Virus record (IMG/VR): IMGVR_UViG_3300024259_000040
Coordinates: 1 to 56,711 of that record
Length of the DNA stretch: 56,711 bases
Reading direction: 5' to 3' (one strand)
Origin: a virus
A program made the position numbers and the translations under genes. Shown in pieces: positions 6,918-50,741 of the stretch (positions are counted from its first letter, which is position 1; each line of letters begins with the position of its first letter). The notes under the pieces are model-generated. The model was given only the letters and a program-made list of their open reading frames with translations, made no database searches and was not told where the DNA came from.

Positions 6918-7499
6918 ATGAGCAAACTAACGCCGAGACAAGCGCGCTTCTGCGACGAGTATCTGATCGACCTCAACGCGACGCAGGCGGCGATACGCGC
7001 CGGCTACTCGCCGAGGACGGCGAATCAACAGGGCGCGCGTCTGTTGGCGAATGTTAAGATCCAGGCCGCGCTCGGCGAACGCATGGAGAAGCGCGCCGAA
7101 CGGACGGGCATCGACGCCGATAGCGTCGTGCGGCGCCTGGCTGAGATTGCGTTCGGCGACCTGGGCGAATTCCTCGACATCCTACCCGACGGGACGGCGC
7201 GCGTAGACCTGGCCAAGGCGAAGGGCAAGACGCGCCTCCTGAAGAAATACGATTGTAAGCAGATCTTGGCCGGCGATCCGAACGACGCGCTGCCGATCGG
7301 CGACATGAAGATCGAACTGCACGACGGCCTGCGCGCCCTCGATATGCTCATGCGTCACCTGGGCGCCTACGCGCCGGACAAGGTCGCACAGACCGACAGC
7401 GCCGGCAACGACGTGGAGCAGAGCGACCAGGCTATCCTCTCCCTACTCATTGGACGACTACAGCGGCGTAAGGCGGCGCGTGACAATGACGGCGATTGA
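6918..7499 (+). CDS. terS: Terminase small subunit
   Basis: A 193-residue protein of the Terminase_2 family. The N-terminal helix-turn-helix is classic (LTPRQARFCDEYL, NATQAAIRAGYS, ANQQGARLL), followed by a GDLGEFLDI phrase also typical of the family and a C-terminal oligomerisation/tail region. It recognises the packaging site and recruits the large subunit. The gene overlaps the large subunit start by 14 bases, the normal coupled arrangement. Confidence 0.93.
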   Translation: MSKLTPRQARFCDEYLIDLNATQAAIRAGYSPRTANQQGARLLANVKIQAALGERMEKRAERTGIDADSVVRRLAEIAFGDLGEFLDILPDGTARVDLAKAKGKTRLLKKYDCKQILAGDPNDALPIGDMKIELHDGLRALDMLMRHLGAYAPDKVAQTDSAGNDVEQSDQAILSLLIGRLQRRKAARDNDGD

Positions 7500-9855
7500 C
7501 GAGCTGGTAGACGCCCTGGACGACCCCGCCGACCTGCTCCTGCTGGCCGACGACCCCGTGGCCGTCGATCTGCTCAAGCGTCGCTACTATGCCTGGTCGA
7601 AGTGGGCCAGGGCCGATCAGCTACCACCCCCGGGCGACTGGACGATCTGGCTCATCCTCGCAGGGCGTGGATGGGGTAAGACGCGCACCGGCGCCGAGTG
7701 GGTCCGTCGCCGCGTCGAGCAGGAAGGGGCGCGCCATGTCGCCCTGATCGGCGAGACGGCGGCCGACGTGCGCGACGTGATGGTCGAAGGGGAGTCCGGT
7801 ATCCTGGCTATCTCCCCGCCGTGGAATATGCCCGACTATGAGCCGTCGAAGCGGCGCATCACCTGGCCCAACGGCGCGACGGCGACGACGTTCAGCGGCG
7901 ATGCCCCCGATCAGTTGAGAGGACCGCAATCGGATACCGCCTGGTGCGATGAGACATGTTTTGTTGCCGGGACGCAGATCGAGACGCACAGGGGGCTTAT
8001 TCCCATTGAGAAGATAGAGCCAGGAGTGCAGGTATGGACTCGCCGGGGTTGGCGATCTGTCAAGGCAGCCGGCCTGACGCGACGCAATGCGCCAGTATAT
8101 GAATTGCGAACCAGTGACGGCCGCCGTCTTGTGGGAACCGGAGAGCATCCGGTTTGGGTAGAAGGTGAAGGTTTTTTGCCCTTGCGTCGGTTGCACTATG
8201 GGAATACCCTTGAGGTATGGGACAATCAAACATTAAACAGAGCATCAAGTGGGGCGGCCGTCGATGGTGGCTCAATGGCGGCTACTACTGTAATCGCCGA
8301 GGGCAACTTTTGCATCGAGCGATTTACGCTGCAGCGCATGGCCCTATCCCCGAGGGCGTCGAGATTCACCACAAAGACGGCAATAAGACTAATAACGATC
8401 TGTCCAACCTCGAAGCCCTCTCCGGCACTGACCATAGGCGGAGACACTGCACTGGCTTTAAGCGTTGGGGTTTTGAGGATCGGAGTCAAGCTAAATTGCG
8501 GCAATGGGCGAATAGGGAGCCATATTTGGCCATCTGCGCTCAATGTGGCAAGGAGTTTTCCACTACGGGGACCAGGTCGAAGTATTGCTCGGGAAATTGC
8601 CGGTCGGCTCATTATAGGGAGACGGCCAGATTCTCGAACTCTGCAGTTTGCGAGTTCTGTGGAAAGGACTTCAAGACCTCCAAATACCAAGACCATCGCT
8701 TCTGTTCACGATCCTGCGCAACATCATCTGCGAATAACAAACGCGCCTATCAGCGCCGAAGAGGCAGTAAGGTCTGTCCGATATGCGGCGCGACCTTCCG
8801 AAAAGAAGATCCGCGCACGCAAACCTGCAGTCGAAAATGCGGCTACATCCTCGCCTCACGTAGTAAGCGTACGTCTTCTTAGTACCCCCCGAGCAGTTTA
8901 CAATCTCGAAGTTGAGGACCAGCCTGAGTATTACGCCAATGGCATACTAGTCCACAATTGTAAGTGGAAGTATGCATATGATGCCTGGTCAAATATGGAG
9001 ATGGGCCTGCGTCTCGGCGCACATCCCCGCTGCGTGGCCACCACCACCCCCCGCCCTATACCTCTTATACGTGAGCTAGTCGCCGACCCTGACTGCGTCG
9101 TCACCAAGGGCAACACCTACGACAACGAGCAAAACCTGGCGCAGCCGTTCATTCAGCGCGTGCTGCGTCGCTATGAGGGGACGCGCCTGGGTCGCCAGGA
9201 GCTGCACGCTGAGATACTGGACGATGTGGTTGGCGCGCTGTGGAGCCGTCAGCTCCTCGACAAGACGCGCCGCCGTGCGGCCGGCTACCTGCTGCGCGTC
9301 GCCGTTGGCGTCGATCCGCAAGGGACGAAGTCGCTCGATGAGGACGGCGGCGACAAGCATGAGACGGGTATCGTCGTCGCCGGCAAGGGGGTAGATGAGC
9401 AGGGCTACGTCCTGGGCGACTACTCGGGTAACTACTCGCCGAACGAGTGGGCCAGCGCCGCCATCAAGGCGTATCACGACCACGAAGCTAACTGTATCGT
9501 CGCCGAGGTCAACTATGGCGGTGATATGGTCGCTCATACGATCCGCACCGTCGATCCCACCGTCAATGTCGTCGTCGTGCGCGCCAGCCGGGGCGCTGGC
9601 AAAGCGCGCCGAGCCGAGCCGATCGTCTCCCTCTACGAGCAGGGCCGCGTCCACCATGTCGGCCTGCTGCCCGAGCTAGAGGATGAGATGTGTACGTGGA
9701 CCGAGGACGGCGGCCAGCCGTCGCCCAACCGCCTCGACGGCGCTGTGTGGGCGCTGTGGAAGCTGTTCATCGACGCCGACGAGGACTATCCGCACTACGA
9801 CCCCGGTCGGCACACCTACGCCGTGCCGGCGCCACAGACGAGGAGAGTCGCATGA
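7486..9855 (+). CDS. terL: Terminase large subunit precursor with intein
   Basis: The packaging ATPase/nuclease that translocates DNA into the prohead. ATG 7486 is preferred over a TTG 12 codons earlier. The 789-residue precursor has Walker A (LAGRGWGKTRTG, near 58-69) and a Walker B ending in WCDET; an intein (residues 158-491) follows immediately, and the extein resumes with CKWKYAYDAW and the TTTPRP coupling motif. The nuclease domain begins at VGVDPQGTKS and includes EVNYGGDM. After splicing the protein would be about 455 residues, the usual size. Unspliced protein would have a broken ATPase site. The frame stays open through a nested HNH gene in another frame. Confidence 0.92.
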   Translation: MTAIDELVDALDDPADLLLLADDPVAVDLLKRRYYAWSKWARADQLPPPGDWTIWLILAGRGWGKTRTGAEWVRRRVEQEGARHVALIGETAADVRDVMVEGESGILAISPPWNMPDYEPSKRRITWPNGATATTFSGDAPDQLRGPQSDTAWCDETCFVAGTQIETHRGLIPIEKIEPGVQVWTRRGWRSVKAAGLTRRNAPVYELRTSDGRRLVGTGEHPVWVEGEGFLPLRRLHYGNTLEVWDNQTLNRASSGAAVDGGSMAATTVIAEGNFCIERFTLQRMALSPRASRFTTKTAIRLITICPTSKPSPALTIGGDTALALSVGVLRIGVKLNCGNGRIGSHIWPSALNVARSFPLRGPGRSIAREIAGRLIIGRRPDSRTLQFASSVERTSRPPNTKTIASVHDPAQHHLRITNAPISAEEAVRSVRYAARPSEKKIRARKPAVENAATSSPHVVSVRLLSTPRAVYNLEVEDQPEYYANGILVHNCKWKYAYDAWSNMEMGLRLGAHPRCVATTTPRPIPLIRELVADPDCVVTKGNTYDNEQNLAQPFIQRVLRRYEGTRLGRQELHAEILDDVVGALWSRQLLDKTRRRAAGYLLRVAVGVDPQGTKSLDEDGGDKHETGIVVAGKGVDEQGYVLGDYSGNYSPNEWASAAIKAYHDHEANCIVAEVNYGGDMVAHTIRTVDPTVNVVVVRASRGAGKARRAEPIVSLYEQGRVHHVGLLPELEDEMCTWTEDGGQPSPNRLDGAVWALWKLFIDADEDYPHYDPGRHTYAVPAPQTRRVA
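8172..8178 (+). promoter_or_regulatory. In-phase slippery heptamer T TTT TTG
   Basis: In the terL frame the codons read GGT TTT TTG, so the heptamer fits the X XXY YYZ rule for -1 slippage exactly. A -1 shift would run 11 codons to TGA at 8211-8213, four bases before the HNH ATG at 8217. The product would be a truncated terL N-extein plus intein N-half, with possible reinitiation on the HNH gene. Use of the site is inference. Confidence 0.4.
8217..8882 (+). CDS. HNH homing endonuclease nested out of frame in the intein
   Basis: A 221-residue protein in the -1 frame relative to terL, with its own ATG and TAG. The N-terminal HNH domain reads LLHRAIYAAAHGPIPEG, IHHKDGNKTNNDLSNLEAL, HRRRH, as in phage HNH_3-type endonucleases. 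Three zinc knuckles follow (CAQCGKEF...CSGNC, CEFCGKDF...CSRSC, CPICGATF...CSRKC) and probably help DNA binding. It would cut intein-less terL alleles and drive homing. The ribosome site is weak (GAGGT abutting the ATG), so coupling to the upstream TGA is a likely start mechanism. Separate endonuclease genes between split-intein halves are known; one overlapping a continuous intein frame is unusual. Confidence 0.88.
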   Translation: MGQSNIKQSIKWGGRRWWLNGGYYCNRRGQLLHRAIYAAAHGPIPEGVEIHHKDGNKTNNDLSNLEALSGTDHRRRHCTGFKRWGFEDRSQAKLRQWANREPYLAICAQCGKEFSTTGTRSKYCSGNCRSAHYRETARFSNSAVCEFCGKDFKTSKYQDHRFCSRSCATSSANNKRAYQRRRGSKVCPICGATFRKEDPRTQTCSRKCGYILASRSKRTSS

Positions 9856-10043
9856 ATCCGATAATGAAGTATTTCGACTATGAGCATTTACCCGCGCACC
9901 TGCAGGCCATCAGTCGGCCGATCTTCGCGATGGCCCACCAGATGAACGACGACCTGCCCGATTGCGCCGAGAAGTCTGCCGGCCTGCGGAAGCTACTCGA
10001 AGCGAAGGACTGCTTCGTTCGAGCGCGTCTGGACGATAGATAG
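9852..10043 (+). CDS. Acb2/Tad1-hairpin-like small protein
   Basis: A 63-residue all-helical protein starting in the terL stop (ATGA). KYFDYEHLPAHLQAISRP leads into a helix, then EKSAGLRKLLEAKDCFVRAR. This helical hairpin wording is widespread in phages and resembles the Acb2/Tad1 hairpin family, whose studied members sequester cyclic nucleotides to block CBASS or Thoeris defence. The family link is from memory of sequence pattern. An anti-defence role is inference. Confidence 0.6.
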   Translation: MNPIMKYFDYEHLPAHLQAISRPIFAMAHQMNDDLPDCAEKSAGLRKLLEAKDCFVRARLDDR

Positions 10044-32589: not shown

Positions 32590-35500
32590 ATGGCCAGTCG
32601 ATTCGCCGGTTTGACGCTCACTTCGCCAAGGGAAGAAGAAGAGGAGCGGCCGTCGCGTAGTCGTTTCGCCGGCCTGACGCTCGCTCCCGCGCCGTCTATC
32701 CCCGAACCGCCTACCCCCGCGCTCCCACCGTCCGACCTACGCCCCGAGCAGGAGGCTTTCCTATCCGGCGATATGACGATGTCACCGCCGTCGATGCCGC
32801 GTGTAGTGCAGGCGGGTGGCGGCACGTCGGTCGTGCCGACCGCACCGGCGCAGCCCGGGCCGTCCTATACCGATCAGATGCGCACCGAGGGACGACCGCT
32901 CACGATGGGCGGCTCCTCTTATGGCGAGAAGCCTAACGCGCTGACGCGCGGCTTCGTCTCTGGCTTTGCCCAACAGAACCCCAATGCATTGGGTGCAGTC
33001 GCCGAGGCGTTCGGTCATCTGGTGCAGTCACCGACGGGCGCGGTCGTCCTGGGGACACTGGCGGGCGGCTCGCCGACGGGTGGGATCGGCCAGGGTATCC
33101 AGATGAGCGCCGGCGTGGGTGAGCGCCTGAAGAAGGCGTCGAAGAAGCTGCGCAGTTATCGGGCGGGGCAGACCTACCAGACGACCGGCCTCTCTCTCAA
33201 AGACATCGAAGACCTCGACACGGCACTGACCTATGCTGGCGAGACGGTCGGCCAGGGGGTCGCCTCAACACTCGCCCCGCTGGCGGGTGGCGCTGTCGGC
33301 GCGCTGGTGGCCGGCCCGGGGGGCGCGATCGCGGGCGCAGCAGGTCCGTCCTATGTCCTCAACATGGGCGACCTCTACGATAGCCTCATTGACGAGAAGA
33401 TCCCCGCCGCACGCGCGGCGGAGATCGCCGCTTATGGCGCTATCCCCCTGGCGGCGCTCGATGCGGCTGGCTCGCTGGGTATCCTCAAGACGATCACCGG
33501 CAACGTCAAGCGCACGCTCATTAAAAACATGGCCAAGCGTATCGCCGCGAAAGCGGCGAAGGGAGCGGCCAGTGAGGGTGGCACGGAGGCGACACAGCAG
33601 ATCGTCCAAGAGGTGATCCGCGACTTTGCATCCGATAGAGACATCCCCCTCGATGAGCAGGCCATGAACGTCCTCGATGCGGCTATCGGCGGCGTCCTGA
33701 CGGGCGGCGCGATGGCGGGGGCGGGTGGCGTGCGACCGGACAAGGCGACCGATCACACGCGGGCCGTCGAGCAGGTCAACCAACGCCTGCAGGAGAAGAT
33801 CACGCCGACGATACCGTTCAGAGAAGCCAACGAGCAGGACGGCAACCTCGGCACGGCGCCCGATGTGCTGGGCTACGAGGAGCGGGCGTTCCCCCAGGAG
33901 ATGCGCGAGCGGTTCCAGCAGGACGAAGCGAAGGCGCGCGAGAAAGCGCAAGGAGACACGGCGCGCGATGCGCTCAACCAGGCCGCCGCTAATATCGGCT
34001 TGACGGAGGAGCAGATCACAGGGCTGGACCGCGCCAGTCTCGCCGAGGCTGTCCACGTCCACGAACAATGGCAGGCACGCGATATTTCCAACAACGAGGC
34101 GACCGAGCAGATGCAGGCGCTGTTTGCTGCCGCCGGCGTTACTCAGGAAGAGGAGGCGGCGCCGATCCAGCGCGTTCAATCGGTCTTCCAAGAGGGCCAG
34201 TTCGCGGCTCCGGCAGTGCAGGCCGAACCTGAACCGGCGCCGCCAGCGGTCGAAGAGACGACCGACGAGCAGGCGACGGAGATCGTCCCACCGAAGGAGC
34301 GACCGACGCTCGACGTGCGCGGTAAGAGACTGGAGCTGCGCTATCCCAAAGGAAACGAGGCGGCGACTCAGGGTAGTATAGACGACGTTCTACTGGCCAA
34401 CATGGGCTTCCGCTATGACAAGGCGACAAAGACGTGGTTTGGCGCGCTCGATGAGGAACGGCAGCAATTCGCTGAACGGCTGGCGGCTGGCGAGGTGATG
34501 GAATTCGGCGGTCCAGAGCTTTTAAGGTCGATGGAACAAAAGGACGCAGCGCGCGCGTCGGTCAGGAAGAATTTCCTCGACAGTCACGGCCAGGTGACGT
34601 TTCAGGCGCCAGTACGGCGGGGAATCGGCGACCGCAAAGGCTTCGCTATCTTCTCACCGTCTACATCGGAGCCAGGTAAATGGCAGGCGACCCTCTTTGA
34701 TGAGGAAGGGCCAGTATCGCACGCCGTTGAAGCCGATTACGACGCACTGCTGAAGGAATACCAGGACGACTACGATATCGACCTGGGCGGCGCGAAGGTC
34801 GCCGAGGCGCCGCAGCAGCGCGCGGAAGAGACGCCAGCAGAGCCGGATTTCGAGGGTATGACCTCCTTACCCGAGCCGCGCACCGGCGGGCCTGCGGAGA
34901 AGCTATATCAGGGCATTGAGGAAGGAACAGACGAAGAGAAGGCGGGCGCCGTCAGAGGGGTCCATGAGCAGGTTATTCAGGATCTCACCATGCGCGGTCG
35001 AATTCTCGCCCATGTCACCGCTCGCCTAAAAGATCCTGACCTTAAAGAGAAAGAGCGGGAAAACCTCGAAGCAGAGAAGAATACCCTCGAACGCGACGTT
35101 GCAGACGAATACGGCGAATATGGCAACGACTTCGGCCTGGATGCCGAGGAGAAGTTGCGCGCTCATGTAGACCAGAGCGTCAACCAGGCGCCGACGAAGG
35201 AGCGAGTGGTCGCCGATATGTCGCTGGAGGAATTCAAGGCCACACGGAAGCCGCCGAATTTCAGCAGCGGTACGGGCGAGGCGACAACCTACGCCGAGAA
35301 AATCGCCAAGTATCGAGCGATGGGCGACGAGAAGGTCCAGGGGGCGGCCACCGGCAATATGCTGGCCGACAAGGTAGAGGCGCAGGCCAAGAAGCTGTTT
35401 GAGGTAGAGCAAAACGCCGATTCTGCGCCGACCGTTACGCAGGATGCGGAACCGAGTACGCCGATTGCGGCAGAGGTCGCGGCGACGGAGGTGGACGAGG

Positions 35501-38500
35501 CACCTGCGCGCCAGCCGAAGGCTTTGATGGTTCGGGACGACGGGGAAGGAGGCACAGAAGTCATCGGTGAGCTGGTAATGCCGGATTACGCACCGGGCGT
35601 TCCGCAGGATGCGGAACCGACGACGGAGGGCGAGGAAGCGCCCACGACGACGGCGACAGAGCCGTGGCAGCCTACCCCCGAAGCCACCCCCGAACCCGCT
35701 CCGGCCCCTGAACCCGCCGAGGCGACGCCTGTCGCTACCGATACCGGCGTCACGCTCAACGAGAATACCGAGCGCGGGACGATCGAGTTGTCGTTCGCAG
35801 GGAAACCGTCGTGGAAGGTGCGCAAGCGCCTGCGGGAATCGACGCCGAAATGGCACTGGTCGAAGACGAAAAGACTGTGGTATAACAAGGCGACCGACGA
35901 GACGCGCGCGCTGGCGCAGGAGATCGCTGGCGGCATGGCGGCGACGCCGGAAACTCCCGCAGCTGTTGGAGAAACGACCGACAGATTAGGGGATATAGTT
36001 CGCCGAATGTCTTTGGTTACGCGCGGGGAAAACGAGCGACGCCCCTCGCAAGGTGAGATGCGCGAATTGCGGGATGCTGGCTTGGCTGAAGAGACTCCAG
36101 ATCATTCGTTTTTTCTGACGGATAAAGGTCAAGAAGTCTTAGAGCCGTTTAAAGCTGCTCGCCCTGCAGAAACGACCGGGGAAGCGCCGACTGAAGCCCC
36201 GCAGGGGCCGACGCCAGAGGAAGCGCGCGCGACACGCGACACGGCGCAGCGGACGAAGGCAGCCGGCCAGCTCCGCAAGGTCGCCGAGAGCGTGCGGACG
36301 AAGGCCGAGGTGAAGATGGGCCAGGACCGACAGACCAACACGGCCCGGCGCGCCAATATGGCAGCCAACGCCGAAGCAGATGCTGCGCGCGAGCTACAGG
36401 TAGCTGAGACGATGGTCAATGTCGCTGACGCTATCGAGAGTGGTCAGGCGCCCCATCTGGCCGGCGTGCGCGCCAAGACGCACATACAGCTCCTCGATCA
36501 ATACCTGGGCAATGCCAAGTGGGACAGCGGACAGGATAAGGGCGAACGCTGGGAGGACAACAAGCAGCGACCTGTCACCGAGGAAGACCTGGAATTCGTC
36601 CGCGATCCCCGTCCGCGCGTCTGGTCGTCCACCCTGCGCGAGCTGGCTGATGCAGTCAAGGGCCAGCGCGGGACCAAAGAGGCAGCGCGAAAGGTGCGCG
36701 ACCGGGCAGGTAGCCAGGGCGATAGAGAGAAGATCACCCTCAATACCGACTCAGATCGCGACGCCGTCGAAACGCTACTGGCTATTGCCCGTAAGATGAA
36801 GAAGAACGGCAAAGAGCCGCGCGGGATGCACTCCATCGAAAACGACATTGGCGACGAATTTAAGAATTGGAGCCGTTTTAAGTCGATCGGCATAAACGAC
36901 GCGCGCGATATGCGCGACGCCCTGCGCGAGTTGATGGAGTTGCGGGGCGAGCTGAAGAAGGAAGACCCCGTCAAGGCCGCCGAGCGCGCTCTGGTGGGCC
37001 GTAAGATACCGGGATACTTCCCGACGCCGTCCGACCTATCTGACCGGCTGGTCGAGGAAGCGGGCATCCAGCCGGGCGACAAGGTGCTGGAGCCGTCGGC
37101 GGGCAAGGGCAACATCGCCGATGCCATCAAAGAGCGGCATCCCGACGCCGACCTGGACGCCATCGAGCCGGTCGAGGATTTGAGGAAGATACTGGAGAGC
37201 AAGGGCCACCGCCTTGCTGGTCGTGACTTCACCGAGCATGAGGGCGATTACGACAAGATCGTTATGAACCCGCCGTTTGAGGACGGCCAGGACATCGACC
37301 ATGTCCGGCGCGCCTACGACCAGCTCAAGCCCGGGGGCCGCCTGGTGTCCATCATGTCAGAGGGACCGTTCTTCCGCAATGACCGCAAGGCGACGACGTT
37401 CCGCGACTGGCTGGAGGGCGTCGGCGGTTTCTCCGAGTCGTTGCCGGAGGGGTCGTTCAAGAGCGCGGAAAGGCCGACCGGCGTGGCGACGCGCATGGTG
37501 GTGATCGAGAAGGCCGAGGAGACGACGACGGAAGCGCCGCAGGAGACGGTCGCAGCGGAGCCGATAGCGGCCGAAGATGGCGACACCAACACCGCCGAGA
37601 ATTATCGCACGCAGATCGACGGCGCCGAGACGGCGTTTGCAGTGGAGCGCATACAAGAGGAGATCGAGGAAGCTGGTAAGGGCGAGACGGCCCGTTGGGG
37701 CGATGCAGAGATGCAACATCTCTGGCAGGTGGCCGAGAGTAAACGTCTCGACCTGGAGCAGCAGGAGGCGCGCGAGTCTGAGGATTTTGCCCAACAGAGA
37801 CTTGTCGAGCGCGAGAAGCGATATAACGCCATCCTCGACGCTTTTCAGCGCGGAGAAGAGGTGACAGTAGCGACTCACACACGCGCGACTATACTATCTT
37901 CCCCCGATCAACTGCGCCTTACGAAGAATGGCGAGGTGCAGATGCCAGAGGGCAAGAATTGGGTAACGCTGACCGACGAACAGGTTGAGAATCTGGCGCG
38001 GCAGGTGGGCTATGATCCCGACGAGGGCGCAGCCGGCACGACAGAGCCACCGACACCACCGGGGCCGACCACTCCCGCCGCCGCCCTGGCCGAGCTGGCG
38101 ACGCTCAAGAGCCTGGACGACGACGCGCGCGCATGGTTCGAGCAGGCCATCGAGCGCCAGCCAGACGACTATAACGAACTCCTCCAGTCGGCGCGCGAAC
38201 TGAACGAAACGGCTTTTGCCGAGAAGGGCAAGGCGTTGTTCGGCGAGGATACGATGGACCTACCGGGGATGCCTCAGCGCCAGATGCCAGAGACGCCCCT
38301 ATCGACGGAGGGCGGCAAAGGACTCGAAGGGACAGCGTTGGCCGGCGCTGTCGAGGACGTGAAGGTCGAGGAGGCACAGAAGAAGCAGGGCAGTCTCTTT
38401 ACGACGACGTTCCCCGACGAGATGACCGTCAACCAGGCGATTACTTATGGCGGTGGGCTGGCGGCGAGTGAGATTGACCGGATCAAGGGCGCGGTCGGTA

Positions 38501-41500
38501 CGCCCGATGACAAGAATCTGCGCATGAATTGGGGTAAGCTGGTGTCGGGTACGAACACGATAGAAGTCTTTCTTGAAGATAATTGGGATTCGCCTATCGG
38601 CACGGTCTTACGTCAGGCAGGCGTCAGAGATGCCGAGGATGTGCAAGGATTCATTGATGCCGTTGCTGATCGCAACAGTCTTTTTGGTAAATACCCGACC
38701 AGTCTGGAAGCAGAAGCCGACAAGGCTTATCGCGAGCGCACCCTATCTTTCCCATCGCCAACGCAGCGACCGGGCGAGACGGGCGACGAGCAGGCGTTGA
38801 GCCGGTTGATGCCCATGCGCCTGGAAGCGCCGACCGGAGAGAGCGCCACAGCCGCCGCGCGCGTCTCTGCGACGGGCATCAATCCCGTCTCTATCATCGA
38901 CCAGATGGGAAAGGCTTTGGAGGTATTGGGGGCGAAAGTGCCGTTTCGTGTGGGGCGCATAGCGCAGAAAGCCAAGGGCATTTTTAAGGTTGCTCCCGAG
39001 GTGATACGCCTGCGCACCGCTAACGATATCACGACCGCCTCGCATGAGCTGGGGCATGGTGTCGAGAAGGCCGTCTTCAGTGGAATCGGCGAGGAGACAT
39101 GGGGGATTCTACCCCAACAGCATCAGATTGAGCTGGAACGCCTGGGGCGCGCGCTCTATGGTGACAAAGAGCCGGTGGCCGGCTATAAGTCCGAGGGGTG
39201 GGCCACCTTCATGCAGCTCTGGCTGGTGCGCGACAAGGAGACACAGCGCCTGGCGCCGACGCTGACGGACTTCTTCGAGAACGCCTTCCTTCCTGCCTTA
39301 CCGGAATTCCAGCGCGAGGTTAATAAGACGCGCGAACTCATCACCAATTGGCGCGAGGCGGGAGCTGTCGGTCGCGCGAAGGCGATGGTGACGGACCCAG
39401 CCTCAATTAAAGAGCGCACGCGCAGGGTAGCAAAGAAGGCGAAAGGGGCTGTCGATGAGATTAAGATGGCCATGGTCGATATGGGCCACCCACTCGATCA
39501 GTTGGCGCAGGCGGCTGGGGAGAAGATGGGCCGACCACTGCGGAATAGTGAGAACCCCTATACGATCCTGACGGCCCGCCGTATGACGGGGGCGCGCCTG
39601 GTGCGTTACATGGTTGAGGACGGGATGCTCGATGTGGCGGGCAATAAGGTGGGCGCTCCTCTGGCTGACATACAGTCGCTCGTCAAGGGCAAGGGCGATA
39701 ACTTCACGCTCTACCTGTGGGCGCGCCGCGCCCTGGCTATGTGGAACGATCCGCAGGGCGAACGTAATCCCGGCTTAGATAAAGAGGACGCCGAGCAGAT
39801 CGTCCGCGAATTAGAGACGCCAAAGTTCCAGCTCGCCGCCCAAAAGGTCTACGATTGGAATGATGGTATACTGAACTATGCAGCCCAAGCATCGCCGTCA
39901 CTGGCCGAGATGGTCGAAGCGATACGAAAGCGCGACCCAGGGGCATATATCCCCCTACGTCGAGAGTTTGAGCAGTTGACCTCCATGTACGATAAGAGCC
40001 GGGGGCAGGGGGGGAGTCCTATCGCGCGCCTGAAGGGATCAGGACGGCGTATCATCGACCCGTTCCCGACGATGATCTCTAATGCTGATCGCATAGTGTC
40101 GGCGGCGCACAAGCGCGAGGTGCTGGATGCCGCTATCCGACTGAGTCAGGTCGAGGGATTGGGCCATCTTATCGAGGAGGTGCCGCGCAACCAGGTGCCG
40201 GCCGCGCAGGTCAAGGTGGGCGACATCGTCAAGCGCCTGTGGAATGAGCAGGGGCTGGTTGTGGGCGTTCCCGAGACGGGCGACGAGGGGCCAGCGGCCC
40301 TATCGGAGGATGCGGCCGATCAGATACCCGACGAGATATTGGACGAAGCTATAACCTTTTTTATGCCGGCGTCGTTCCCCAAGGGCGAAGATCCAATTAT
40401 TCCACATCGCCAGGACGGTACGACGAAATGGTTCCAGGTGGACCGCAACCTCTGGCGGTCGCTTTCGGGTGTCGATATCTACCGCTTGCCGAAGATGGCC
40501 GATCTCTTCCTGGGCGGCCCCGCGCGCGTCTTCCGTGCCGGCACGACCGGCCTGCGAGCTTCCTTTAACCTGCTGTTCAACCCCGAGCGCGATTTACCGA
40601 CGTTTATCGCCAACACGCAATCGGGCGCGCGCATGGACCAGGTCACGATGGCCTATATGTCCGCCATGCGCGACGCGACGATGGGCAAGGTGGGGATGGA
40701 GAATGAGTGGTTTGACCTTTTCGTGCGGCAGGGGGTCGAGATGGCACAACCCCTTGGGCAAGACACGACGCCCACTAAGCGCGCCGCGCGCGAGCTGTTT
40801 GAGGGGAAAGCTGTCCGCGTGATTGATCCGCGTAACTGGCTCGACTTCTACCGCGATCTAATCTCTACTCCCGAGTCGGTGCCACGCATCGCTGAGATGC
40901 GCCTGGTCGCTAAAAAGATCGGATGGACACCCGGGCAACCCTTATCCCTCGACCAAGCACTTGAGCTGACGGTCGCTGGTAAGCAGGTGACGACAGACTT
41001 TACGGCCGCCGGATGGCTCGCGCGCACGATCAACGCCATGACGCCGTTCCATAATGCCGCCATCCAGGGGCCGCGCGTGACCCTACGCCGCATGAAAGAA
41101 GACCCGCTGACGGTGATCCCGCGCATGCTCGGCTTATTGACTATCCCAACGCTCCTGGCCTGGTGGGATAATAAGGATGAGGAGTGGTTCACCCAGCTCC
41201 CCTGGCGCGAAAGACTTTTAAACTGGCACATACCTATAGAGATGCCGGACGGTAGTAAGGAGATCGTTCGTATCCCCCGACCGTTCGAGGTGGGGCAGAT
41301 ATTCGCGGCTCTCCCCGAGCAGCTCTGTGATAGTTGGTATCGGCAAGATCCCAAGGGAATGGAGGAGTGGTTCTCGACGGTAGTGGAGACAACCGTTCCC
41401 CCGGGGCCATGGGAGAGTCCCGTTCCCAAGCTGGCGGCCGAGCAGTTGGCTAACTGGCAATTCTTTTGGGAGCGCCCCGTCGTCCCCGAGGGAGAGAAAG

Positions 41501-42420
41501 ACCACCCACCACCCGAACAGTTCAACGAGTACACGTCTCGCGCGGCGATCGTGTTAGGGGATATGTTCGGCCAGTCGCCGCGCCGCATCGACCATGCCAT
41601 ACGGGCGCTGATGGGTGGCGTCGGTGGTGATGTATCGCGCGGCCTGTTCGGGCGCGGCGAGGAGGGCGAAGGTAATATCGTCCAGCAGGTTGAGGAGTTC
41701 CTTTCCGGCGAGGAGGGCGAAGGTAATATCGTCCAGCAGGTTGAGGAGTTCCTTTCCGGCGAGGAGGGCGGGACCAGCGAGTTATCTGATTTGCCGATCT
41801 TCGGTCGCCAGTTCGTGCGCGGTGGGCAGTCGCCGGCGCGCAGTCAATCAACGGACGATCTGTATACAGCCTACGAGAAGGCGGTCCAGAAGTCGCAGTC
41901 TATTCGCCATCCCGAGACAAAAGCAGAGCGCCAGCGACGACTCCTCTTGATGGACGCGACGCGCGCCCTCGGCGCCCTGTTTGCCGTCCGCAGGGGGAGC
42001 GATAGTAAGGAGGCCCAGCGCCGCCTGAACTCCACCATAGACGAGATAGCGCAGGCAGCCCTCAACGAGTCGGAGATGGATGTGAGCGAGGATGATCGGG
42101 AGAAGTTCGCCGAGCGCCGCAAAGATGCCGAACTGGAAGAGGCGGTCGCCCAGGCGCGCGCCGGACGACTGGACGAGCATGACCGTCGTCGCGCGGTCGC
42201 CCGCGCGCACGCACAGGTGCAGGTGCTGGACAAGGGCGACGCCCGCTGGAAGCAGGCGCACGACGTGGTCAAGACGTTGACGGCCGACTATGGCGGGTTC
42301 GATAAGTACCGCCAGGTGCTGCAAAAGCAACGCACGGAGTCGGGCAAAAGCTCGGCGCTGACGGCGTTCAACAGCTCACTGAAGACATACCGCAAGCAAC
42401 TGCGCAAAACGAGCCGATAA
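32590..42420 (+). CDS. Giant polyvalent (ejection) protein, 3276 aa
   Basis: The largest gene. The N-terminus duplicates SRFAGLTL (residues 3 and 20); residues about 130-390 are Gly/Ala-rich and membrane-active-looking. Two similar LELRYPKG/IELSFAGK domains (near 580 and 1065) and a winged-helix-like unit (near 1130-1190) follow. A SAM methyltransferase core has VLEPSAGKGNIAD at 1499 and NPPF at 1560. A zincin has HELGH at 2152-2156 with a likely third ligand Glu2202 (SEGWA). An LPD38-like segment (DFTAAGW, ITPFFNAAIQG-type PFHNAAIQG at 2818) precedes a coiled-coil end. This domain mix is that of phage polyvalent proteins, thought to be injected with DNA to protect it and disarm the host. Confidence 0.85.
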   Translation: MASRFAGLTLTSPREEEEERPSRSRFAGLTLAPAPSIPEPPTPALPPSDLRPEQEAFLSGDMTMSPPSMPRVVQAGGGTSVVPTAPAQPGPSYTDQMRTEGRPLTMGGSSYGEKPNALTRGFVSGFAQQNPNALGAVAEAFGHLVQSPTGAVVLGTLAGGSPTGGIGQGIQMSAGVGERLKKASKKLRSYRAGQTYQTTGLSLKDIEDLDTALTYAGETVGQGVASTLAPLAGGAVGALVAGPGGAIAGAAGPSYVLNMGDLYDSLIDEKIPAARAAEIAAYGAIPLAALDAAGSLGILKTITGNVKRTLIKNMAKRIAAKAAKGAASEGGTEATQQIVQEVIRDFASDRDIPLDEQAMNVLDAAIGGVLTGGAMAGAGGVRPDKATDHTRAVEQVNQRLQEKITPTIPFREANEQDGNLGTAPDVLGYEERAFPQEMRERFQQDEAKAREKAQGDTARDALNQAAANIGLTEEQITGLDRASLAEAVHVHEQWQARDISNNEATEQMQALFAAAGVTQEEEAAPIQRVQSVFQEGQFAAPAVQAEPEPAPPAVEETTDEQATEIVPPKERPTLDVRGKRLELRYPKGNEAATQGSIDDVLLANMGFRYDKATKTWFGALDEERQQFAERLAAGEVMEFGGPELLRSMEQKDAARASVRKNFLDSHGQVTFQAPVRRGIGDRKGFAIFSPSTSEPGKWQATLFDEEGPVSHAVEADYDALLKEYQDDYDIDLGGAKVAEAPQQRAEETPAEPDFEGMTSLPEPRTGGPAEKLYQGIEEGTDEEKAGAVRGVHEQVIQDLTMRGRILAHVTARLKDPDLKEKERENLEAEKNTLERDVADEYGEYGNDFGLDAEEKLRAHVDQSVNQAPTKERVVADMSLEEFKATRKPPNFSSGTGEATTYAEKIAKYRAMGDEKVQGAATGNMLADKVEAQAKKLFEVEQNADSAPTVTQDAEPSTPIAAEVAATEVDEAPARQPKALMVRDDGEGGTEVIGELVMPDYAPGVPQDAEPTTEGEEAPTTTATEPWQPTPEATPEPAPAPEPAEATPVATDTGVTLNENTERGTIELSFAGKPSWKVRKRLRESTPKWHWSKTKRLWYNKATDETRALAQEIAGGMAATPETPAAVGETTDRLGDIVRRMSLVTRGENERRPSQGEMRELRDAGLAEETPDHSFFLTDKGQEVLEPFKAARPAETTGEAPTEAPQGPTPEEARATRDTAQRTKAAGQLRKVAESVRTKAEVKMGQDRQTNTARRANMAANAEADAARELQVAETMVNVADAIESGQAPHLAGVRAKTHIQLLDQYLGNAKWDSGQDKGERWEDNKQRPVTEEDLEFVRDPRPRVWSSTLRELADAVKGQRGTKEAARKVRDRAGSQGDREKITLNTDSDRDAVETLLAIARKMKKNGKEPRGMHSIENDIGDEFKNWSRFKSIGINDARDMRDALRELMELRGELKKEDPVKAAERALVGRKIPGYFPTPSDLSDRLVEEAGIQPGDKVLEPSAGKGNIADAIKERHPDADLDAIEPVEDLRKILESKGHRLAGRDFTEHEGDYDKIVMNPPFEDGQDIDHVRRAYDQLKPGGRLVSIMSEGPFFRNDRKATTFRDWLEGVGGFSESLPEGSFKSAERPTGVATRMVVIEKAEETTTEAPQETVAAEPIAAEDGDTNTAENYRTQIDGAETAFAVERIQEEIEEAGKGETARWGDAEMQHLWQVAESKRLDLEQQEARESEDFAQQRLVEREKRYNAILDAFQRGEEVTVATHTRATILSSPDQLRLTKNGEVQMPEGKNWVTLTDEQVENLARQVGYDPDEGAAGTTEPPTPPGPTTPAAALAELATLKSLDDDARAWFEQAIERQPDDYNELLQSARELNETAFAEKGKALFGEDTMDLPGMPQRQMPETPLSTEGGKGLEGTALAGAVEDVKVEEAQKKQGSLFTTTFPDEMTVNQAITYGGGLAASEIDRIKGAVGTPDDKNLRMNWGKLVSGTNTIEVFLEDNWDSPIGTVLRQAGVRDAEDVQGFIDAVADRNSLFGKYPTSLEAEADKAYRERTLSFPSPTQRPGETGDEQALSRLMPMRLEAPTGESATAAARVSATGINPVSIIDQMGKALEVLGAKVPFRVGRIAQKAKGIFKVAPEVIRLRTANDITTASHELGHGVEKAVFSGIGEETWGILPQQHQIELERLGRALYGDKEPVAGYKSEGWATFMQLWLVRDKETQRLAPTLTDFFENAFLPALPEFQREVNKTRELITNWREAGAVGRAKAMVTDPASIKERTRRVAKKAKGAVDEIKMAMVDMGHPLDQLAQAAGEKMGRPLRNSENPYTILTARRMTGARLVRYMVEDGMLDVAGNKVGAPLADIQSLVKGKGDNFTLYLWARRALAMWNDPQGERNPGLDKEDAEQIVRELETPKFQLAAQKVYDWNDGILNYAAQASPSLAEMVEAIRKRDPGAYIPLRREFEQLTSMYDKSRGQGGSPIARLKGSGRRIIDPFPTMISNADRIVSAAHKREVLDAAIRLSQVEGLGHLIEEVPRNQVPAAQVKVGDIVKRLWNEQGLVVGVPETGDEGPAALSEDAADQIPDEILDEAITFFMPASFPKGEDPIIPHRQDGTTKWFQVDRNLWRSLSGVDIYRLPKMADLFLGGPARVFRAGTTGLRASFNLLFNPERDLPTFIANTQSGARMDQVTMAYMSAMRDATMGKVGMENEWFDLFVRQGVEMAQPLGQDTTPTKRAARELFEGKAVRVIDPRNWLDFYRDLISTPESVPRIAEMRLVAKKIGWTPGQPLSLDQALELTVAGKQVTTDFTAAGWLARTINAMTPFHNAAIQGPRVTLRRMKEDPLTVIPRMLGLLTIPTLLAWWDNKDEEWFTQLPWRERLLNWHIPIEMPDGSKEIVRIPRPFEVGQIFAALPEQLCDSWYRQDPKGMEEWFSTVVETTVPPGPWESPVPKLAAEQLANWQFFWERPVVPEGEKDHPPPEQFNEYTSRAAIVLGDMFGQSPRRIDHAIRALMGGVGGDVSRGLFGRGEEGEGNIVQQVEEFLSGEEGEGNIVQQVEEFLSGEEGGTSELSDLPIFGRQFVRGGQSPARSQSTDDLYTAYEKAVQKSQSIRHPETKAERQRRLLLMDATRALGALFAVRRGSDSKEAQRRLNSTIDEIAQAALNESEMDVSEDDREKFAERRKDAELEEAVAQARAGRLDEHDRRRAVARAHAQVQVLDKGDARWKQAHDVVKTLTADYGGFDKYRQVLQKQRTESGKSSALTAFNSSLKTYRKQLRKTSR
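41656..41771 (+). repeat. 51-bp perfect tandem duplication
   Basis: A 51-base unit (41656-41706) is repeated exactly at 41707-41757, and a third copy starts and breaks off after 14 bases. In frame it encodes two copies of a 17-residue acidic/helical unit containing EGNIVQQVEEFLSG. Length variation between isolates is expected. Confidence 0.9.
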
Positions 42421-49454: not shown

Positions 49455-49511
49455 GTAGCACACTCTGTAGCACAGTCGATATAATACAAAGTGTGCTATA
49501 AAGCGTGCTAC
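49455..49511. promoter_or_regulatory. 57-bp dyad of four GTAGCAC sites over integrase promoter
   Basis: GTAGCAC at 49455 and 49467, then inverted copies GTGCTAT at 49493 and GTGCTAC at 49505; spacing is 12 bp on both sides and the symmetry centre (49483) falls on a TATAAT (49480-49485). This suits a regulator or integrase binding as a tetramer or pair of dimers and shutting the integrase promoter. It may also be part of attP. Confidence 0.6.
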
Positions 49512-49529
49512 AAAAAAACGAGGTGGGAG

Positions 49530-50741
49530 ATGGCCCGAGTCTACCCCTACAAGAAGCGATTCCGTGTTGCCTATTCACTGACGCTCCCCGGCCGGACGCT
49601 GCGGCGGTCGAAGTACCCGCGCAACAAGGCCGAGGCCGACGCGCTGCGCCGTGGCGTGGAGGAGCTGGAGTCGGCGACGCGCCAGCGTATGGCACCGCTC
49701 GAAAAGATTGAGGAGTGGATCGCCCGGGGGTGGATCGCTTCTGACGACGCCGTCGCGGCGTTCCCGGCGTTCGCCCATGCGCCGGCGCGGTTCAAGGCCA
49801 TCGACCTGGATACGATGGTGCAGGCGTTCGCGGATCACTCGGAGAAGAATTCAAAGGGCGATGTGGGGCAGCATGCCCACGTCGCGCGCATGTCGGTGGC
49901 GCGTCAGGTGGTCGCCTGGCTGCGTGCCGAGTGGCCAGCGCTCGACTTCGCGGCGGCCGATCTGCGGGGTTGGCTGGATGAACTGGCGAAAAGGTATGCC
50001 GATGCGACGGTGAGCCACCGCCTGCAGACGCTCCGGCTATTGCTCGACCAGGGGCTGCAGTTGGGGATGATCGAGCGCAATATCGCCCGGGACGTGACGC
50101 TACCCGTCCCCAAGGCGCGCGAGCCGCGCCGCATCCTCACGCAGGACGAGATACGCTATGTCCTCAAGGAGACGAAGGCGCGCGGTGGCGGCTGGCTCAA
50201 CGGCGGCCTGGCGACGGTGGCGCGCCTGGGGCTGTATGCGGGCCTGCGGAACGGCGAGATGACGTGGTGTTGTTGGGACTGGCTGGATACGTCGCGGCGC
50301 CTGCTGACGATCCCCTCCAAAGCCGTGGCGGCCCATGGCGAGGTGTGGACGCCCAAGGACGGCGAGAGCCGGCAGCTCGATGTGAAGCAGGAGCTATGTG
50401 ACTGGTTCGATGAGGAGAGGGAGCGGCAGGAGCGAGAGGGGTTGCTGCATGGCCCCTACGTCATACCCAGCGGCGGGACGTGGAGGCCGCAATACCGAGG
50501 GCGGCCCGTCTGTTACATGGCCATCTCGGCGCGGTGGAGAGATTTTGCGACGACGATCGGGCTGGACAAGAAGATCACCGTCTACTCTTTTCGGCACACC
50601 TACGCGACCGAGCTTTTGCGCGCCGGCGTCGATATTATGACGGTGCGCGATCGCCTGGGCCATAGCGACCTGAAGACGACGATGGGATATTTGCATGCGC
50701 TGGATACGTCACGACACCCGACCGACGCGCTGCCCTACTGA
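49530..50741 (+). CDS. int: Tyrosine recombinase (integrase)
   Basis: A 403-residue integrase; ATG 49530 is chosen for GAGGTGGGAG just upstream (an in-frame GTG at 49491 lies in the dyad site). An N-terminal arm-binding region is followed by a core-binding helical domain (about 100-190). The catalytic domain begins at RRILTQDEIRYVL, with the first Arg in LYAGLRNGEM, then YSFRHTYATELLRAG (Tyr replaces the usual first His of HxxR), RDRLGHSDLKTTMGYLH with the LGH and the nucleophile Tyr. It inserts the phage into the host chromosome. Attachment core not identified. Confidence 0.92.
   Translation: MARVYPYKKRFRVAYSLTLPGRTLRRSKYPRNKAEADALRRGVEELESATRQRMAPLEKIEEWIARGWIASDDAVAAFPAFAHAPARFKAIDLDTMVQAFADHSEKNSKGDVGQHAHVARMSVARQVVAWLRAEWPALDFAAADLRGWLDELAKRYADATVSHRLQTLRLLLDQGLQLGMIERNIARDVTLPVPKAREPRRILTQDEIRYVLKETKARGGGWLNGGLATVARLGLYAGLRNGEMTWCCWDWLDTSRRLLTIPSKAVAAHGEVWTPKDGESRQLDVKQELCDWFDEERERQEREGLLHGPYVIPSGGTWRPQYRGRPVCYMAISARWRDFATTIGLDKKITVYSFRHTYATELLRAGVDIMTVRDRLGHSDLKTTMGYLHALDTSRHPTDALPY

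Follow-up and report, generated by a model that had tools for sequence, protein, structure and literature searches.

Inteins are usually described in one of three forms: with an endonuclease fused in frame, with the endonuclease lost (mini-inteins), or split, with a freestanding endonuclease beside them. Split inteins that flank a freestanding endonuclease gene were reportedly described by Dassa et al. in 2009 as 'fractured genes'. A 2025 preprint by Gosselin, Arsenault and Gogarten is said to deal with actinobacteriophage inteins of 'non-canonical architecture', and its title suggests possible overlap with the present work.

In the literature on inteins and overlapping frames, the sole direct precedent that we found was the ShiLan work; a terL family of the kind described below, or evidence of selection on it, was not found there. 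The ShiLan domain and the 'hidden HNH' of Pacc40 are insertions in mycobacteriophage methylases (Arsenault, Gosselin, Gogarten 2025, PMC11855218). The authors found no splicing domains and inferred that the insert stays in the methylase. Its disjunct distribution was taken as homing, and a ribosome-binding site (RBS) for the hidden HNH was not detectable (PMC11855218).

The window analysed here is a stretch of viral DNA of 56,711 nucleotides (IMG/VR record IMGVR_UViG_3300024259_000040). Its terL gene resembles the ShiLan element in having an out-of-frame HNH gene, in the -1 relation, within a host frame that is kept open (PMC11855218). In contrast to ShiLan, the host protein is TerL, a full Hint intein surrounds the HNH gene, and the HNH starts of the terL family carry Shine-Dalgarno-like sequences where ShiLan has no detectable RBS (PMC11855218). 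The ShiLan-type insertion has no splicing element, whereas the Hint domain in the window is one.

Bifunctional inteins, which contain an in-frame HNH or LAGLIDADG endonuclease, share with the terL element the Hint fold, the conserved site and the position of the endonuclease between blocks B and F. They differ in that the endonuclease of the window, and of all nested copies too, lies outside the intein polypeptide in the -1 frame. Like the 'fractured genes' of split inteins, the terL element has a separate HNH gene between the Hint halves, and related HNHs occur in both arrangements. However, the terL intein is continuous in one stop-free frame, while split loci have 6-17 stops in that frame. 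The split-intein loci with an HNH between the halves appear as a separate class, with a stop-rich intein frame.

Given the possible overlap with the preprint on actinophage inteins, the novelty of the principle, an out-of-frame HNH in a continuous Hint intein, is provisional. An earlier note on this DNA had called the layout new. This has to be qualified, as an HNH gene lying out of frame within a host frame that stays open had already been published in 2025 (PMC11855218).

The terminase locus and its intein frame

Pfam domains in the TerL frame are Terminase_6N, Intein_splicing/Hint_2 and Terminase_6C, and HNH_3 lies in the -1 frame. The features of the locus are:

6918-7499, + strand: small terminase subunit gene, directly upstream of TerL (Terminase_2, E=4e-36)
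7486-9855, + strand: TerL, from ATG 7486 to the stop at 9853-9855; 789 aa unspliced, open throughout
7486-7956, + strand: TerL N-extein, 157 codons, ATPase with Walker A and Walker B (ORF, Terminase_6N; aligns to intein-free TerLs)
7957-8958, + strand: intein frame, 334 codons from C1 to HN, without stop (Intein_splicing and Hint_2; family alignment; AlphaFold Hint fold)
7957-8226, + strand: N-terminal Hint part, residues 1-90, blocks A and B (pLDDT 92-98; HintN alignment)
8211-8216, + strand: TGA in the HNH frame two codons ahead of the HNH ATG, and GAGG at 8212-8215 (sequence)
8217-8882, + strand: nested HNH endonuclease gene, 221 aa, -1 frame relative to the intein, overlapping the start of the C-terminal Hint part (HNH_3, Pfam, E=1e-15; family alignment)
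8227-8847, + strand: overprinted linker, about residues 91-297 (~205), predicted disordered (pLDDT about 45; stop-free; residue changes track the HNH frame)
8848-8958, + strand: C-terminal Hint part, residues 298-334, blocks F and G (pLDDT 96-98)
8959-9855, + strand: TerL C-extein, 298 codons from the +1 Cys, then stop (Terminase_6C; empty-site alignment)

When the intein (7957-8958) was excised in silico, a gap-free TerL of 455 aa was obtained that matches intein-free relatives. The junction after excision reads AWCDET^CKWKYA (^ marks the splice point), and the corresponding stretch of the intein-free Brevundimonas phage Polewnik reads AWCDELCKWRYA. Since the 455-aa protein aligns without gaps with the intein-free relatives, the insertion site at Walker B is right. 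Coordinates, frames, Hint matches and the empty-site alignment agree, so that three claims of the earlier note are borne out: a 334-codon intein frame at the TerL Walker B, a full HNH gene inside it in the -1 frame (HNH_3 at 8217-8882), and an intein frame without stops across that gene, the TerL ORF being open from 7486 to 9855. TerL alleles with and without intein, for which that note had proposed a search, were both found (56 nested copies; Polewnik is intein-free).

The splice residues of the window intein are C1, the block B motif TGEH and the end ...ANGILVHN^C. In the family alignment made for the structure step, from which phage-record loci were left out, C1, H64 and N334 are invariant and T61 is nearly so. 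Among the 56 nested copies, C1 is found in 55, and the last two intein residues plus the next residue are HNC, SNC, SNS or HNS in 54. All sequence marks of a class 1 intein are thus found in the window (a Cys/Ser nucleophile, TxxH, and Asn followed by Cys/Ser/Thr), as is an in-frame insertion at a conserved site with the host restored on removal.

AlphaFold, given the window intein with 46 family members, predicted a confident Hint domain from residues 1-90 and 298-334 (pLDDT 97-98), with the linker between them at about 45. Foldseek matched this predicted fold to the inteins gp41-1 and MchDnaB (closest) and Mtu RecA. By its sequence and predicted fold the element is a true Hint intein, which would be expected to splice. 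HNH genes are often intron-borne, and a group I intron instead of an intein could be thought to bear this one. Such a reading is scarcely credible here: the Hint fold and splice residues are present, the frame lacks stops as that of an intein would, and Rfam intron families were found neither in window positions 7400-9900 at a permissive threshold nor in six related loci at the gathering threshold.

Elsewhere in the window, a very large ORF (32590-42420, 3276 aa) has matches in phage families that bear the labels DNA methyltransferase and virion structural protein. A tyrosine-type integrase gene (49491-50741; PF00589, E=5e-20) makes a temperate phage probable.

Recurrence of the nested layout

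Relatives were gathered by HNH protein similarity alone, and the frame was not used as a criterion. One of them, L002, has an HNH 54% identical to that of the window; it lies in the same -1 frame, within a TerL intein that is just as open. Profiles for HintN, HintC and HNH were run over 138 loci. They gave 61 copies with HintN, HNH and HintC, which are viral or phage and of which 56 are non-redundant at 80% identity. All 61 have the HNH in the -1 frame and are stop-free between the Hint halves. They include copies from the cultured phages TJE1 and Highwayman and from the sequenced phage LS06-2018-MD07. In another ten loci only HintN was detected; eight of these stay open until the HNH ends.

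Scanning GTDB genomes yielded another 18 nested copies, in assemblies of bacteria and archaea (Bacteroidota, Pseudomonadota, Nitrospirota, Patescibacteria-type bins, Thermoplasmatota archaea and others). These are probably proviruses or binned phage contigs, and at least one of them (L157) appears to be the same virus as L138.

The nested copies are divergent, with HNH identity often near 30% and GC from 29 to 65%. Because the layout recurs in divergent phages and is always -1, it appears to be a widespread, old and stable intein architecture and no intermediate. The term 'intermediate' used when the locus was first described has to be dropped, as cultured phages (TJE1, Highwayman) and assemblies of bacteria and archaea have the same layout. 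As to a single or repeated origin of nesting, the HNH tree needs 10 changes of label (nested or not), but its strong branches force only 2. Hint and HNH distances correlate only weakly (rho 0.14), so that the two parts need not have been inherited together over deep time.

The same observations bear on an assembly artefact, in which one contig indel would have shifted the reading frame at an HNH that is really in frame and another would have restored it. This is a general possibility for a metagenome contig, but it requires two compensating indels, and the same frame relation is seen in dozens of independent assemblies as well as in cultured-phage genomes. We regard an artefact as exceedingly improbable.

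Stops in the intein frame

The chance of an open intein frame across the HNH gene had been put at about 2 in 100,000 ((61/64)^222 = 2.4e-5), a figure that assumed equal base use. It did not hold. When the window HNH gene was shuffled by synonymous codons, 0.96 intein-frame stops were expected and 32% of the shuffles had none (p about 0.3). With codons drawn from the phage's own usage, 2.0 stops were expected and P(0) was 0.07. The open intein frame of the window by itself is within chance and not significant, and its non-randomness is established only by comparison across the family.

That comparison was clear. In the 56 non-redundant nested HNHs, whose assignment as nested used the absence of stops in part, no intein-frame stop was found in 11,773 codons, against 133.8 expected from synonymous shuffling. 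The third frame of those genes had 1013 stops versus 1055 expected. The corresponding frame of 33 freestanding HNH relatives had 354 versus 359, and in five split-intein loci whose HNHs belong to this family there were 42 versus 36.7. The 18 GTDB copies had none versus 38.3. No locus with both Hint halves had one or few stops; any with stops had at least six.

Stops in the intein frame are made by HNH codons NTA before A or G, and NTG before A. NTA before A/G was seen at 0 of 181 such codons in nested genes and at 255 of 439 in freestanding ones. The counts for NTG before A were 0/201 and 44/134, and for ATG before A 0/91 and 41/115. Freestanding HNHs near terL have stops in the frame equivalent to the intein frame (BP10 12, CL2 8, EauM-23 11, PAE1 4). 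As the same dual-use layout is kept in many divergent phages, these counts argue that selection, and no accident, holds both reading frames open.

Freestanding copies have stops at 5.2% of codons in the -1 frame and at 11.4% in the other frame. The constant -1 frame is likely due to this halved stop density; common descent is an alternative.

The stop counts also speak to whether the intein is effectively split, with an intein frame that is open by coincidence and a TerL that arises through trans-splicing, if at all. Related phages do have split terL inteins with an HNH between the halves (L072, L084, L161), and the predicted fold is closest to gp41-1, which is known as a split intein. However, against the 6-17 intein-frame stops of the split loci stand the 56 nested copies with 0 in 11,773 codons, in which neither a start nor a stop separates the halves. 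An effectively split intein is therefore very improbable.

Selection on the HNH gene and the linker

The HNH family alignment has an invariant HH, D, NN, H and zinc-binding Cys. HNH homing endonucleases are recognised by the HNH motif with zinc-binding cysteines, and the window gene has both. The motif is intact in 56 of 56 nested copies. Substitutions at HNH codon positions 1, 2 and 3 were.29/.24/.47 in nested copies and.29/.23/.48 in freestanding ones. Because the nested pattern equals the freestanding one, the amino acids of the linker seem to be free, the sole visible demand of the intein frame being the absence of stops. Purifying selection appears to sit on the HNH frame and not on the linker.

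These results weigh against the HNH being a functionless passenger, dead or dying, in a mini-intein. A few copies do look eroded (L006, L105, L151): the N-terminus of the HNH is eroded in L006 and the HNH start is not obvious in L105. Not every nested HNH need be active, since such copies exist. Yet the selection on the HNH frame and not the linker, the intact motif in every nested copy and the retained Shine-Dalgarno signals make a passenger hardly likely.

Translation start of the HNH gene

The HNH usually starts at intein residue 84-92, at the end of the first Hint half. The Shine-Dalgarno energy was -4.55 kcal/mol for nested HNH starts, -4.22 kcal/mol for freestanding HNHs and -1.88 kcal/mol for internal ATG/GTG codons, and nested starts bear Shine-Dalgarno-like sequences as often as freestanding HNHs. 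The GAGG of the window itself is weak, too near the ATG and among the weaker ones in the family. With start signals seen family-wide, the separate manufacture of TerL and HNH from one DNA, as first proposed for this locus, is most likely.

The HNH could also be made without a separate start, if ribosomes slipped by -1 out of the intein frame and so produced a fusion of the intein N-part with the HNH. Indeed, the HNH frame is -1 in every case, and the intein frame has a slippery-type heptamer, T TTT TTG, at window 8172-8178. However, the -1 preference matches the halved stop density (5.2% vs 11.4%), and HNH starts bear Shine-Dalgarno signals like those of freestanding genes. In the window and in L002 a stop in the HNH frame comes 0-1 codons ahead of the HNH ATG, and in most copies this frame is open for no more than a few codons ahead of the start. 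Frameshifting into a fusion is very unlikely on these grounds. A -1 slip at 8172-8178 would terminate at the TGA at 8211, two codons ahead of the HNH start; coupling by reinitiation is therefore conceivable.

Proposed mechanism and its meaning

We consider it highly probable that the terL intein splices in one frame, that a homing HNH is translated separately from the -1 frame, and that this is a long-lived, common architecture. Ribosomes starting at the terL ATG would read through the whole intein, including the linker of ~205 residues. The two Hint halves would then fold together around the disordered linker and splice out, giving the 455-aa TerL. Other ribosomes would initiate at the HNH ATG inside the intein, one base back, and release a free HNH of 221 aa. 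The HNH would most likely cut intein-free terL alleles at the Walker B codons, a site that is known intein-free in relatives, and repair would copy the whole element in (homing).

Frameshifts normally inactivate homing endonucleases. We see about an even chance that overprinting is a widespread selected architecture, in which the shared essential frame shields the HNH from frameshifts and uncouples its dosage and folding from the host protein. If true, this would be a 'genetic entanglement' found in nature, between a selfish gene and an essential one. The nested terL inteins tie the ShiLan puzzle to true inteins. They would offer dozens of long gene overlaps under a clear rule, stops forbidden and residues free, and make it testable how a selfish gene locks into an essential one. 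A large set of phage terL inteins, cultured phages included, seems to hide an endonuclease in the other frame of a continuous intein. Annotation overlooks such endonucleases: in TJE1 and Highwayman, for example, only terL is annotated at the site of the nested HNH.

Insertion sites and relatives of the nested elements

The classifiable host genes of nested elements are terminases. Two sites in terL dominate, one beside the nuclease-domain motif D(D/N)H^CxDALRY and the other at Walker B (window, L002, L092, L135); L151 has a third terL site. Two nested intein-HNH elements lie in one terL, at the Walker B and nuclease sites, in L092 (1639-2514, 3367-4263) and in L135 (109-939, 1801-2709). In L004, the TerL frame upstream of 3618 appears to contain a further intein, unlike the first and located in the Walker A loop (GGNQ^C...HHN^SGKT), in which no HNH was seen.

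In L072, L084, L161, L107 and Vibrio phage 1.238.A (L200), the terL intein is split and a related HNH gene lies between its halves. The C-half in the Vibrio phage is annotated separately as 'hedgehog/hint domain protein'. Two nested loci (L131, L143) have another Hint C-terminal subtype (GGLIVHNC), as in the split loci, and this shared subtype hints that the split and the nested form can pass into one another.

Freestanding relatives of the nested HNH adjoin terL, often in the gap between terL and the portal gene: CL2 (L201), EauM-23 (L202), PAE1 (L058), BP10 (L199) and Ec1-ASingh (L195). This position suggests that freestanding HNHs beside terL are a source or a derivative of nested copies. 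Acinetobacter phage BP10 was considered as the empty-site partner of Highwayman and rejected, its TerL being no close relative. The canonical arrangement was seen in a Nitrososphaerales assembly (L185, 1116-2114), where an intein with an in-frame HNH lies in an apparent ribonucleotide reductase.
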